Assembly (NCBI GenBank): GCA_021851405.1
Contig: JAJZDW010000019.1
Location: 1-64,000, forward strand
Source: Pseudomonadota bacterium
GTDB taxonomy: Bacteria > Pseudomonadota > Gammaproteobacteria > Steroidobacterales > Steroidobacteraceae
Direction of reading: 5' to 3'
DNA: 64,000 nucleotides
The notes below the pieces were generated by a model. That model was not told the origin of the DNA. It ran no database searches and worked only from the letters and a program-made list of their open reading frames with translations. Shown here one piece after another: positions 2,174 through 27,353 of the stretch (position 1 is the stretch's first letter; the number at the start of each line of letters is the position of its first letter). A program made the position numbers and the translations under genes.

Positions 2174-4508
<2,335 letters not shown>

Positions 4509-23174: not shown

Positions 23175-23297
23175 CCGTGCGACCTGGGCGGCAATTTTCA
23201 GACGTGATCGGCGTCTCGGTCGCGGTGAGCGACGCCATCGCGTCGGTGTGTCGCGCTCGGTGACGGCACGGTGCGCAGCAGCAGGGGAGTGACTCTG

Positions 23298-24479
23298 ATG
23301 AGTACGCGATCGTTGCCTCGGGATGCCTGGCTGCTGTGCTTCTCCGCATTCAGCGCCGATCTCGGCTATCAGGGCGTCACGGCGCTGTTCCCGCTGTACC
23401 TGGTGTTCCAACTGCACGCATCGCTCTATGCGTACGGTGTCGTGACCGCGATCGCCTTCGGCGGCGGCGCGTTCGTGGGCTATCTCGGCGGACTCGCCGG
23501 AGATCGCTTCGATCGCAAGAAGGTGGCGATCGCCGGCAATGCGCTGATTCCGCTGATGGCGCTCGCGGGGCTCGCGCACTCGCTCGTGCTCTCGGCTCTG
23601 TTGTATGTGCTGGGCTGGTGGGCGCGGTATTTCCGCAGCCCCCCGCGCCGCGCGCTGCTGGTGAGCGCAACACCGCCGCCGGAGCGCGCGCGCGCCTTCG
23701 GCACGCTTCATGCGCTCGACATCGGCGGCGGAATGCTCTCGGCGCTGCTGGCGCTCGGGGCGCTGTGGATGAAAATCCCGATCGCAACGGTGATGCTCTG
23801 GGCGGTTGTGCCGCTGCTCGCCTCGACGGGGCTGCTGCTGCTCGTGCGCCGCGACGAGGTGCATGCGCAGCCGACCCCCGGCGCACCGGGTGCCCAGGCC
23901 CGTGTGCCACGCCAGACCGTGCTGCTGGCGCTGCTGGTGTCCGCCACCCTGTACGGCTTCAGCTTCTACAACCTGGGCTTTCCGATCATCACCGCGACCA
24001 CGGAGCACGTCGCGGCACGTTACGAGTGGGGTGTGCTCGCCTATGTGATCTACCTTGGCGTCTCGGCGCTCACCGGTTACGTGCTCGGCACGCGGCGGAC
24101 CTCCTCGGGCCGCGCCGTGTGGCTGTTCGGCTATCTGCCCTCGGCGCTCGGATCGGGTCTGATCGGCCTCAGCGTGGCGCTGCATCTGCAGCCAGCGGCA
24201 ACCTACCTCGCCGTCGCGGTGCTGGGGTTCGGTATGGGAGCGGTCGAGACCTTCGAGCCGACTCTCGTCTCCTCGCTCGTCAGCCACACGCGTCTCGGGC
24301 GCGGCATGGGCTTCCTGTCCGTGTCACGCGCTCTCGGGCAGTTCCTCTCGAACCTGGTCATGGGGCTGCTGTTCGTGTTCGGACCCGCCGTGCCCTATGC
24401 CTACGCGTTCGCCTCCGCATTGCTCGCCGCCGTGGTATTTGGCAGCGTCGAGCTCTTGGCTCGGCGCAGCGCGGCATAG
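23298..24479 (+). CDS. MFS transporter
   Basis: 393 residues with 12 predicted membrane helices. The MFS loop 2-3 motif is visible as GGLAGDRFDRKKVAIAGN (about residues 60-78). No substrate-specific signature was recognised, so it could export drugs or metabolites. The ATG at 23298 has GGGGAG upstream and is preferred over an in-frame Met nine codons earlier. It is followed by a non-coding region with an RNA gene candidate on the other strand. Confidence 0.85.
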   Translation: MSTRSLPRDAWLLCFSAFSADLGYQGVTALFPLYLVFQLHASLYAYGVVTAIAFGGGAFVGYLGGLAGDRFDRKKVAIAGNALIPLMALAGLAHSLVLSALLYVLGWWARYFRSPPRRALLVSATPPPERARAFGTLHALDIGGGMLSALLALGALWMKIPIATVMLWAVVPLLASTGLLLLVRRDEVHAQPTPGAPGAQARVPRQTVLLALLVSATLYGFSFYNLGFPIITATTEHVAARYEWGVLAYVIYLGVSALTGYVLGTRRTSSGRAVWLFGYLPSALGSGLIGLSVALHLQPAATYLAVAVLGFGMGAVETFEPTLVSSLVSHTRLGRGMGFLSVSRALGQFLSNLVMGLLFVFGPAVPYAYAFASALLAAVVFGSVELLARRSAA

Positions 24480-24493
24480 TGTCGCGTAGGTGC

Positions 24494-24522
24494 AAAAAAG
24501 AGGACCCCGCGCGGGCGGGGTC
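24494..24522 (-). terminator. intrinsic terminator on the minus strand
   Basis: GACCCCGC (24503-24510) pairs with GCGGGGTC (24515-24522) around loop GCGG. On the minus strand the stem is followed by CTC and six U residues (A-run at 24494-24499). The orientation points to a minus-strand transcript, although both flanking protein genes read plus. Confidence 0.75.
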
Positions 24523-24672
24523 GGTCGCTTGCTTGCATCGAGTCGTGCTTCTTTATTGTTCTCATGTGGCACGGTGCGGCATACGTCTGTGTTCGCAGCG
24601 TGCCCGTGCTTTCTCGGAATTTCTCTACGGTCGCGTGTTCTTCCCCCCGGAACCGCCGGGCGGTCCGCAGTG
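24494..24672 (-). ncRNA. candidate sigma-54-dependent small RNA
   Basis: A near-consensus sigma-54 promoter at 24683-24698 predicts a transcript start near 24672, and an intrinsic terminator ends it near 24494. This gives about 180 nt on the minus strand in a region without a convincing protein gene. The RNA contains GAACAAUAAAGAAG (24545-24558), an AAnAAnAA-type stretch like those bound by Hfq/Crc in CrcZ-class RNAs, in front of the terminator stem. Dyads lie 45-100 bases upstream, where enhancer-binding activators act. Existence and role are inferred; no homologue was recognised. Confidence 0.55.
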
Positions 24673-24682
24673 GGCAATTACC

Positions 24683-24698
24683 AGCAAACCCTGTGCCA
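24683..24698 (-). promoter_or_regulatory. sigma-54 (RpoN) promoter
   Basis: On the minus strand TTGGCAC, five bases, then TTGCT. This matches YTGGCACG-N4-TTGCW at every position except the G after GGCAC. The -24 GG and -12 GC have the required spacing. It reads away from the transglycosylase gene into the terminated RNA candidate. Confidence 0.6.
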
Positions 24699-24717
24699 AG
24701 TGGTCCTTCGGTGCCAG

Positions 24718-24774
24718 TGTCATGACATATCGGCACTGTATCGGCGCGCGAATGTGACGTAATGTCCACTTACG
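24718..24774. promoter_or_regulatory. dyad symmetries upstream of the sigma-54 promoter
   Basis: TGTCATGACA (24718-24727) is a perfect palindrome nested between GTGCC and GGCAC. CGTAA-N7-TTACG lies at 24758-24774. Their centres are about 50 and 94 bases upstream of the predicted RNA start, the second being a typical distance for a sigma-54 activator. Further GTAAC (24907-24911) and GTTAC (24927-24931) half sites lie near the transglycosylase start. Confidence 0.35.
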
Positions 24775-24953: not shown

Positions 24954-27353
24954 ATGAAATCGACGGGCAACTTTAGGACGGTGCCCGGCGTGCTGCGCCT
25001 GCTCTCGACAGTTTTTCTGGCGACCTTCACCGCTCGGGCACTCGCGACCGATGCGGTTCTGCCCTGTCCGCCGCAGCTGCGCACCGCAGTGCACTTCTGG
25101 ATCCGCGTCTACACACAGATCGACACGAACGAAGGGTTCCTGCACGACCCAAATCATCTCGGCGTCGTCTACGCGACCGTGCGCTTCGCCCCGGGGAGTC
25201 CGCCGGCGCAACGTCAGGACATCGTGAATCGCGAACGCGACCGGATCGCCGCGCAGTTGCGCAGCATCGCCGCCGGAGTCCGGCCGCTCACGCCCCAGGA
25301 GCAGCGGATTCGGGCGCTGTGGGGGCCGCACCCGAGTCCGGCGCAGCTGCGCGAGGCGGCCGGAGAGATCCGCTTTCAGCTCGGCCAGTCGAACCGCTTC
25401 AAGGCGGGGCTGATCCGCTCCGGCGCCTGGCACCACGCGATTGCCCGGGCGCTCGCCGCGCACGGACTGCCCCCCCAGCTGGCGGCGCTGCCGCTGGTGG
25501 AGTCCGCCTACAACCCGCGCGCGTATTCGAAGGATGGCGCGGCGGGCCTGTGGCAGTTCATGCCCGGTACGGCGGAGCGCTTCCTGCACATCGACGCCGC
25601 GCTCGACCAGCGCTTCGATCCGTTCAGCGCGACCCTGGCGGCCGCACAGCTGCTCTCGTACAACTACCGGATTCTCGGCACGTGGCCGCTGGCGATCACC
25701 GCCTATAACCAGGGCGTTGCGGGCGTACTGCGCGCCGTGCACGCGGAAGGCACCCGCGACCTGGGTGTGATCGTGCGGCGCTATCACACGGCGATGTTCG
25801 GTTTCGCCTCGCGCAATTTCTACGCATCGTTCCTTGCCGCGCTGTATGTCGATCAGCATGCGCAGCGTTATTTCGGGTCGCTGCGGCGGCTTCCGGAGGA
25901 GCACTTCCAGGAGCTGACGCTGCCGGGCTACGTCTCCGTGGAGGCCATCGAGCAGGCCGCGAAGGTCGGCGCGGCCCGGCTCCGCGAGCTGAACCCGGGA
26001 CTGCGTCCTGCGGTGTGGGGCGGCGAGCTCGACGTGCCGAAGGGCTACCGTCTGCGTCTGCCGGCCGGCGGTGTGCGGTGGACCGTGGCGGCACTGCGGG
26101 CGCGTCTTGGCGCGCACGCGATTCTCGTCGCGCAACTGCGCCCGCCGGTGTATCGCGTGCAGCCGGGCGATACTCTCTCGGGTATCGCCGCCCGCTACCA
26201 CATCGATCTCTGGGCACTCGCGCGCTTCAACGGTATCCCGCTCGGCGGGATGCTGCGCATCGGTGAGCGGCTGCGTCTGCCGGGCGCCTCACGGCCGCCG
26301 GCACAGGCCGTCGCCCGGGCAGCGCCGGTGAGCGCCACTCCTGTGACGCTCGCGGCGGTCTACCGGGTACGTCCCGGGGACACTCTCACCGGGATTGCGG
26401 CACGGTACGGCGTCAGCCCAGCCGCGTTGGCCCAGCGCAACGGGATCGGGCTCAATACGCTCCTGCAGGTCGGCGAGCCGTTGCGCCTGGCGGCCCTCGC
26501 ACCCGCACGTGCGCCGCCGGCGCCTGCGTCTGCCGCAAGCGCCGCGCTGGCGGCGCTCTACCGAGTGCGTCCAGGCGATACGCTCAGTGGGATCGCGGCG
26601 CGTTATGGCATCAGCCCGAGCGCCTTGGCGCAGCGCAACGGCATCACGCTGAATACGTTCCTGCAGGTCGGCGAAGCGCTGCATCTGCCGGGGCGCGCGC
26701 CGAGCCCCGCCGTTCTCGCCGTGAACGTCGCCGCGGCCCCTGCGCCGGTGGCGCCAACGGCTCGAGCGGCCACTGGCGAGGCTTTGGCGGTCGCCCAGGC
26801 CGTCACGCGCGCGGCGCCGCCGGCGCCGGCCGAGGACCCCCAGCCGGTTTCCGCGCGCCAAGCCAAGGCTCTCGGGCCGATGCTCGGGCCCGAGGCCGAT
26901 CCGGCACGCAGCGTGGACCCGGCCAACTACCGGGTGGGTGCGAACGACACGATCCGCGTGGCGCCGGCGGAGTCGCTCGGCTACTACGCACAGTGGCTCG
27001 GGGTGAGCGCGATGGATCTGCGCCGCCTGAATCACCTCGCCTTTCATCAGCCGGTGAGGATCGGGGAGCGCATCCGCCTCGATTTTCATTTTGTGACGCC
27101 CCAGCAGTTCACTGCGCGGCGCCTCGCCTACCATCAGGCGCTCGAACAGACCTACTTTGCTCGGTATCGGATCGACGGAACGCGCAAATACGTCACGCGC
27201 AGCGGCGATTCGCTGTGGACCCTGACGCGGCGCTTCAGTGATCTGCCCGCGTGGCTGCTGCGCCAGTACAACCCGCACACGGACTTCTTCACCTTGCACC
27301 CCGGGACGCCGTTGGTGATTCCGCGTATCGTGCCGGCCGGCGCCGCCGGCTGA
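24954..27353 (+). CDS. mltD: MltD-type membrane-bound lytic transglycosylase with LysM repeats
   Basis: 799 residues. A signal peptide ends near ARALA (residue about 30). The transglycosylase domain carries catalytic Glu183 in LPLVESAYNP and then GAAGLWQFMPGTAERF. Three strong LysM domains follow (about residues 398-442, 470-513 and 536-580, each starting YRV-PGDTL), then two weaker LysM-like segments (about 658 and 746 on). It cleaves peptidoglycan glycan strands with 1,6-anhydro ends in the periplasm. E. coli MltD has two LysM, so this is longer than usual. A long A+T-rich leader precedes it. The L,D-transpeptidase gene follows by 22 bases. Confidence 0.93.
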   Translation: MKSTGNFRTVPGVLRLLSTVFLATFTARALATDAVLPCPPQLRTAVHFWIRVYTQIDTNEGFLHDPNHLGVVYATVRFAPGSPPAQRQDIVNRERDRIAAQLRSIAAGVRPLTPQEQRIRALWGPHPSPAQLREAAGEIRFQLGQSNRFKAGLIRSGAWHHAIARALAAHGLPPQLAALPLVESAYNPRAYSKDGAAGLWQFMPGTAERFLHIDAALDQRFDPFSATLAAAQLLSYNYRILGTWPLAITAYNQGVAGVLRAVHAEGTRDLGVIVRRYHTAMFGFASRNFYASFLAALYVDQHAQRYFGSLRRLPEEHFQELTLPGYVSVEAIEQAAKVGAARLRELNPGLRPAVWGGELDVPKGYRLRLPAGGVRWTVAALRARLGAHAILVAQLRPPVYRVQPGDTLSGIAARYHIDLWALARFNGIPLGGMLRIGERLRLPGASRPPAQAVARAAPVSATPVTLAAVYRVRPGDTLTGIAARYGVSPAALAQRNGIGLNTLLQVGEPLRLAALAPARAPPAPASAASAALAALYRVRPGDTLSGIAARYGISPSALAQRNGITLNTFLQVGEALHLPGRAPSPAVLAVNVAAAPAPVAPTARAATGEALAVAQAVTRAAPPAPAEDPQPVSARQAKALGPMLGPEADPARSVDPANYRVGANDTIRVAPAESLGYYAQWLGVSAMDLRRLNHLAFHQPVRIGERIRLDFHFVTPQQFTARRLAYHQALEQTYFARYRIDGTRKYVTRSGDSLWTLTRRFSDLPAWLLRQYNPHTDFFTLHPGTPLVIPRIVPAGAAG

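Follow-up and report, generated by a model that had tools for sequence, protein, structure and literature searches.

Qrr of Vibrio is under sigma-54 control, and Rfam contains the Qrr and GlmY/GlmZ families as well as a CrcZ model. GlmY of the Enterobacteria is described as sigma-54-controlled (PMC4211561), and CrcZ of Pseudomonas, which depends on RpoN and CbrB and titrates Hfq, as an RNA of 407 nt with six A-rich stretches (PMC4063720). NfeR1, the alpha-r14 RNA of Rhizobia, is reported to carry CCUCCUCCC in three hairpins and to be independent of Hfq (PMC10746234), and MalH is described as an sRNA derived from a 3'UTR (PMC8081044). Sigma-54 also drives PEP-CTERM protein genes, whose sigma-54 sites are described as preceded by a motif at about 60 bp (Haft 2006, PMC1569441). 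RpoN dependence of pepA of Aquincola is reported from experiment (PMC9850573).

The locus described here lies in a 64-kb stretch of DNA, the whole of which is called the window, and shares some properties with each of these systems. Like CrcZ, it has an RpoN-type promoter, an intergenic RNA and an A-rich tract, but the RNA is about 179 nt long, its A-rich tract is single and short, its conserved core is not A-rich and it has no Rfam match. GlmY/GlmZ and Qrr are likewise structured sRNAs driven by sigma-54, from which the window's RNA differs in its neighbours, in its conserved core and in matching no Rfam family. The CUCCUCC-type anti-Shine-Dalgarno motif of NfeR1 is also found in many copies of the RNA family; the three hairpins of NfeR1, each with an unpaired CCUCCUCCC, are not, and at most one motif stands beside a longer conserved core. 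As in MalH, core and terminator form the 3'UTR of a protein gene in one sister genus (g25), whereas in other genera the core belongs to a gene that stands alone under a sigma-54 promoter of its own. The g25 form is itself a sigma-54-driven PEP-CTERM gene with similar spacing of the upstream motif, but the element contains TCACA and not a motif ending in TTTACA, and PrsR is below cut-off in the window's genome.

At the gathering score, no Rfam family matches the window or 20 homologous loci, and with E up to 10 there are only three unrelated matches, all below gathering. Because of this and of the differences in motifs, the RNA is filed as a new family of sigma-54-dependent sRNAs and not as CrcZ, GlmY/Z, Qrr or alpha-r14. 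No sRNA of the Steroidobacteraceae and no sRNA in a PEP-CTERM 3'UTR was found among the titles and abstract openings of the papers listed by the literature searches. Judged from its sequence and that of its relatives, the locus is most likely a previously undescribed small regulatory RNA under sigma-54 control.

Extent and distribution of the RNA

The features of the locus, in coordinates of the window, are:

24494..24672, minus strand: small RNA of about 179 nt, from the expected +1 to the end of the T-run (from sequence, BLAST bounds and covariance model)
24683..24699, minus strand: sigma-54 promoter TTGGCAC-N5-TTGCT (-24/-12), an exact match kept in relatives
24750..24770, minus strand: activator-like element around GTCACA (24753-24758), 60 bp from TGGCAC
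24648..24667, minus strand: 5' hairpin, predicted by individual foldings
24569..24609, minus strand: central hairpin with a conserved bulged A (GCACGGGC / GC-A-CCGUGC), with compensatory changes
24548..24561, minus strand: A-rich tract GAACAATAAAGAAG, possible Hfq distal-face site, conserved in place
24521..24536, minus strand: conserved box GCAAGCAAGCGACCGA with core AAGCAAGCGACC, likely seed (identity across copies; unpaired)
24494..24522, minus strand: intrinsic terminator, stem 24503-24522 plus T-run, present in aligned homologs
24954..27353, plus strand: MltD-like gene with SLT and three LysM domains, the divergent neighbour and usual landmark
23271..24479, plus strand: MFS gene (Pfam MFS_1), the convergent neighbour in the window's sub-clade

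A preliminary description of the window had placed a sigma-54 promoter and an intrinsic terminator on the minus strand, between two plus-strand genes. Both are there, framing about 179 nt, and so are the two genes, MFS at 23271-24479 and MltD-like at 24954-27353. The latter is termed 'MltD-like' because it scores 150.9 bits against the NCBIfam MltD equivalog, whose cut-off is 508. TTGGCAC-AGGGT-TTGCT at 24699-24683 is the sole exact match to TGGCAY-N5-TTGC in the 64-kb window, and transcription is expected to start at 24672, since the C of the -12 GC is at 24684. The terminator stem (24522-24503) consists of 8 bp, 7 of them GC, and is followed by CTCTTTTTT down to 24494. Within the window only, neither promoter nor terminator beats chance: the single promoter match compares with one or more matches in 33 of 100 shuffles and the single terminator with a shuffle mean of 0.8. 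The folding z-score of the window's RNA is -0.88. These window-only statistics are weak, and the locus is judged real because relatives conserve it.

The window segment 24480-24720 was used as a BLAST query against 60 relatives; many weaker matches in the output are due to chance. In five genomes of middle distance the ends of the match (query 20-23 to 224-227) coincide with promoter and terminator. Of the 30 loci of this first scan, 26 have a sigma-54 site when one mismatch is allowed (19 perfect, 7 with the mismatch), and this site precedes the end of the BLAST-matched part by 176-219 nt. The four other loci (L020, L026, L027 and L030) have neither this site nor the core, look like chance matches and were left out of the alignments, which thus comprise 26 loci. 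MltD is found beside the RNA in 24 of these 26 and in 24 of 28 loci from the wider family, and the MFS neighbour in 13 of the 30 first-scan loci, every one of them from the window's sub-clade.

A strict pattern of promoter, 109-169 nt and box is present in 31 of 41 genomes of the genus and in one of 355 other genomes drawn from the order; the reversed pattern gave none. Applied to a collection of 84,980 species, it found 42 stretches, five labelled Steroidobacteraceae and the rest Gammaproteobacteria, Proteobacteria or Pseudomonadota.

The preliminary description had proposed a covariance search of related genomes and had named conservation of promoter and terminator there as a test. The covariance model used for the family loci contains no promoter. 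Of 217 genomes scanned, 64 have the RNA by this model: 51 of the 58 in the genus, where the seven with no match are 62-91% complete, and 13 that belong to six other genera of the same family. Among 274 genomes of a class-wide scan, matches occur in three, namely the window's own, G633 and G683, and the last two have no sigma-54 site and look like chance. A sigma-54 site lies within 260 nt in 21 of the 28 family loci fetched from covariance matches. The remaining seven are five PEP-CTERM 3'UTR loci, one locus at a contig end (L165) and the degenerate L175 of G360. The latter looks like a decayed copy, because it has neither a sigma-54 site, even when two mismatches are allowed, nor an intact box. 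Taken with the first-scan loci, the conservation of promoter and terminator supports the earlier proposal of a sigma-54-dependent small RNA with its own terminator.

Two genera, g34 and g23, have short forms of the RNA, with 66-97 nt between promoter and core, which retain the core and CUCCUCC. Two covariance matches per genome are found in G005, G010, G411 and G412 (loci L162-L169); duplication is not certain, since some of the matches lie where a contig stops or come from assemblies whose contamination is 3-6%. For two of these copies, L163 and L168, the upstream 2 kb or so contains no mltD. Another perfect sigma-54 site is present in a relative (L283, G032:C97:4160-4235, minus strand). In the roughly 150 bases that follow it, inspection by eye finds a terminator-like hairpin with a T-run and no obvious ORF between, and L283 may be regarded as a second candidate sigma-54 small RNA.

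Structure, conserved core and search for targets

At the level of sequence comparison, promoter, terminator, central hairpin and core show the RNA to be under selection. Individual folds consist of the 5' hairpin, the central hairpin with its bulged A, an open region holding the A-rich tract and the box, and the terminator. The central helix of 8 pairs, as counted here, was written in from one fold. Seven of its pairs have changes on both sides, and 90.9% of the cells are paired compared with 81.5% in shuffles, none of 500 shuffles being as high; shifting the partner strand drops pairing to 21-48%. RNAalifold finds only 4 terminator pairs, a weak result, in the full-length alignment, and in the 3' part, unaided, 6 pairs of the central hairpin, 5 of which are changed on both sides. 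The earlier statement that the RNA holds no convincing protein gene agrees with the alignment, in which no ORF is common to the 26 RNAs, and a reading as a small protein was rejected for that reason. In the window's sub-clade, short frames over the conserved box pass the terminator without a stop.

The sequence AAGCAAGCGACCGA, immediately ahead of the terminator, is identical in all 26 aligned RNAs while the remainder varies widely; across these core-bearing loci the identity of the MltD neighbours falls to about 54-57%. The count of 26 out of 26 flatters the box, because these loci were found by their likeness to the window's copy. Outside genus g25 there are 23 further copies; 16 of them match the core AAGCAAGCGACC exactly and 5 the full 14-mer, while the seven without an exact core comprise six with core substitutions and one cut by a contig end. 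The core, of 12 nt, is kept across genera. Its mean probability of being unpaired is 0.75, compared with 0.48 for the whole RNA, and ranges from 0.41 to 0.95 in single sequences. Genera g34 and g25 have extra AAGC repeats that extend the core (L148, L236, L237 and G249:C1:3067351-3067383), with up to four units in G249, a pattern that would fit the tetramer as the functional unit. Altered cores (AAGCAAGCAACC, GAGCATGCGACC, AAGCAGGCGACA, AAGCAGGCGACC and AAGTAAACGATC) occur among L161, L163, L164, L170 and L175, and are natural variants that could be matched with changes in targets.

The sequence in front of the box distinguishes two sub-clades. One, which includes the window, has GCACGACUCGAUG or a close variant, and the other has CUCCUCCACA, which is complementary to Shine-Dalgarno sequences. 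CUCCUCC stands ahead of the core in most lineages seen, at most once per copy; the window's sub-clade has none, having replaced that part and kept the core.

An A-rich run ahead of the terminator stem, noted in the preliminary description, is present at 24561-24548, but it is not above chance in the window's copy: its three consecutive ARN triplets are reached by 112 of 300 shuffles. Three or more such triplets in a row occur in 19 of the 26 aligned copies, often not above shuffles. The tract is a possible Hfq distal-face site.

In the window's genome, besides the RNA's own locus, 11 near-complements with two mismatches were found, and the reversed control also gave 11. The contexts of nine of them could be placed (all except L062 and L071) and none is persuasive as a target. 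As for mltD, duplex energies are not better than those of shuffles in most of the 26 loci, and it was rejected as a target; in L006, L009, L011 and L019 at most 7 of 60 shuffles are as good, which looks sporadic.

The upstream element and the PEP-CTERM gene of genus g25

Of 52 distinct upstream sequences, 46 have the TCAC core of the upstream element at 59-60 bp, where it is part of a longer stretch with the approximate consensus AAcGnGCAyTGCGTCACAnTTG. When element and promoter were searched for together, with 46-76 bp allowed between them, 43 of the 58 genus genomes gave a total of 52 matches, and the reversed control gave one. By position, 44 of the 52 are the sRNA promoter, and 43 of these 44 are spaced 59-60. 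The one other match in the window's genome is the promoter of the flgBCDE operon (L277, about 3340-3413, minus strand), with CGTCACACTC 59 bp upstream; FlgB and FlgC of this genome score over their NCBIfam cut-offs. In this promoter CGTCACAYTC stands 59 bp ahead of a sigma-54 site, with half-site and spacing equal to those of the sRNA promoter, and the corresponding flgB promoters of G024, G006 and G011 (related loci L278, L279 and L280) share the feature. Since a genome has about 20 sigma-54 promoters, which is a guess, one chance match to the element would not be rare. The retention of the feature in four flgB promoters makes an activator common to the sRNA and flgB, perhaps a flagellar one, a fair lead. 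The flagellar region contains two sigma-54 activator genes side by side. The four remaining matches are single ones in G024, G155, G032 and G030; by eye, the gene in G024 was read as PEP-CTERM-like and that in G155 as pilA, and the site in G032 is unassigned.

PrsR is above cut-off in seven of ten genomes, and is not regarded as the general activator because it is not above cut-off in the window's genome, G031 or G426. Nor was the PEP-CTERM/PrsR regulon motif ending in TTTACA found, the element at 59-60 bp having TCACA. Ahead of its promoter the window has a 10-bp palindrome, TGTCATGACA, which the aligned relatives do not share and which was dropped; a CRP-like reading of the element (TGTGA-N6-TCACA), which few copies fit, is only a possibility. 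Both rpoN and hfq are present in all six genomes tested. One relative has a second rpoN gene (G031:C23:37529-38854).

The seven genomes of genus g25 carry a DUF4114/PEP-CTERM protein gene, at whose stop codon the core (GGATAACnACAAGAAGAAGCnCTCCTCAGCAAGCAAGCGACC or a slight variant of it) and terminator begin; this 3'UTR arrangement is found in all seven. The pattern search for the core region in 217 genomes gave 46 matches, compared with 3 for the reversed control. The g25 gene is divergent from mltD and is preceded by a perfect sigma-54 site; an element GCTCACAT or GATCACAT with TCACAT lies 59 bp before that site in the five g25 loci inspected. The order GGATAAC, A-rich tract, CUCCUC and core is also that of the free RNAs of g1, g32, g34 and g39. 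The RNA would have a common origin with the 3'UTR of this PEP-CTERM gene, which occupies the same mltD-linked site in g25 and is driven by sigma-54.

At E 1e-10 the PEP-CTERM protein has matches in 15 of 217 genomes and in none of the 58 genomes of the window's genus. One g20 genome has a homolog of 54% identity whose locus has neither the core nor a sigma-54 site at up to one mismatch. This homolog is also divergent from an MltD gene, and the PEP-CTERM gene may therefore be an old neighbour of mltD. In seven more genomes, which have distant homologs (L239-L246), the flank fetched gave no MltD match. The MltD tree places g25 together with g34 and g23 (support 100/99), so that the coding region would have been lost at least twice or gained once. 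Conceivably, though we lean slightly against it, the regulatory RNA outlived its gene, having been carried in the 3'UTR of a sigma-54-driven PEP-CTERM mRNA whose coding region was lost in the window's lineage, where the RNA has a new structured 5' half. If this is true, a sigma-54 promoter of the same kind is left in the window's lineage with the RNA as its sole product, and one transcript of the sister genus gives both an exosortase-sorted surface protein and an sRNA.

Proposed mechanism, alternatives and significance

We think it probable that the locus encodes a stand-alone, trans-acting sRNA of about 179 nt, driven by sigma-54, probably assisted by Hfq and acting by pairing of its core, with an ancestry shared with the PEP-CTERM 3'UTR. 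Sigma-54 RNA polymerase would start the RNA at about 24672 when an enhancer-binding protein occupies the upstream element, 60 bp ahead of the -24 box; sequence and conservation establish the promoter and the element themselves. The RNA is expected to fold into the 5' hairpin, the central hairpin and the terminator hairpin with its U-tail, of which compensatory changes demonstrate the central one and the other two are predicted. Its working part would be the open stretch between central hairpin and terminator, where the A-rich tract is followed by the core AAGCAAGCGACC. Hfq would bind the U-tail, and probably the A-rich tract too; features of an Hfq-type sRNA, an hfq gene and a terminator with a U-tail, are present. 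The core would pair with target mRNAs as the likely seed, sites of the GGUCGCUUGCUU type being its expected counterparts. Because CUCCUCC complements Shine-Dalgarno sequences, its position before the core in most lineages suggests repression at ribosome-binding sites.

The alternative that deserves most attention, although we consider it unlikely, is that the core is a protein-binding or processing site and not an antisense seed, so that the RNA would bind a protein or act as a decoy. Identity of the core in 26 of 26 copies, despite the divergence of the MltD neighbours to about 54-57%, would fit such a site, as would the failure of target searches in the window's genome and in the mltD mRNA. 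The core is, however, predicted to be mostly unpaired, lies beside an Hfq-type tail and in most lineages seen adjoins the anti-Shine-Dalgarno motif. The preliminary description compared the RNA with CrcZ, and a sponge of that type, in which A-rich motifs titrate Hfq and so lift carbon catabolite repression, could draw on the sigma-54 promoter, the A-rich tract at a conserved place and the presence of hfq. This comparison does not hold up well, and a sponge appears improbable: the tract is single and short, no better than chance in the window's copy, against six in CrcZ, the strongest constraint is on the core AAGCAAGCGACC, which is not A-rich, the short forms of g34 and g23 keep core and CUCCUCC, and Rfam gives no match.

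The shared core of the RNA and the PEP-CTERM 3'UTR, including the stretch that holds the stop codon of that gene, might also mean that the locus is a short mRNA or a functionless relic of the PEP-CTERM gene, and L175 shows that a copy can decay. We give this very little credence, as the 26 copies have no common ORF, and the conserved core, the compensatory changes and the conserved promoter show selection on the RNA. Least credible of all is that the conserved block is mainly a DNA-level control region of the divergent mltD and not an RNA gene. It is true that mltD is the usual neighbour, but the whole transcribed part is constrained as far as the terminator, the compensatory changes are of the RNA type, and the second copies L163 and L168 lack mltD in the 2 kb or so upstream.

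The trans-acting sRNA preferred here adds a well-delimited sigma-54 RNA family in bacteria that metagenome assemblies alone represent in this analysis. With its 12 nt conserved from genus to genus, the core lends itself directly to the prediction of targets and to tests by mutation. The occurrence at one site of a free RNA and of the 3'UTR of a surface-protein gene provides a natural case for sRNAs that arise from, or are absorbed into, mRNAs, and the two forms point to sigma-54 regulons of the cell surface and perhaps of motility.
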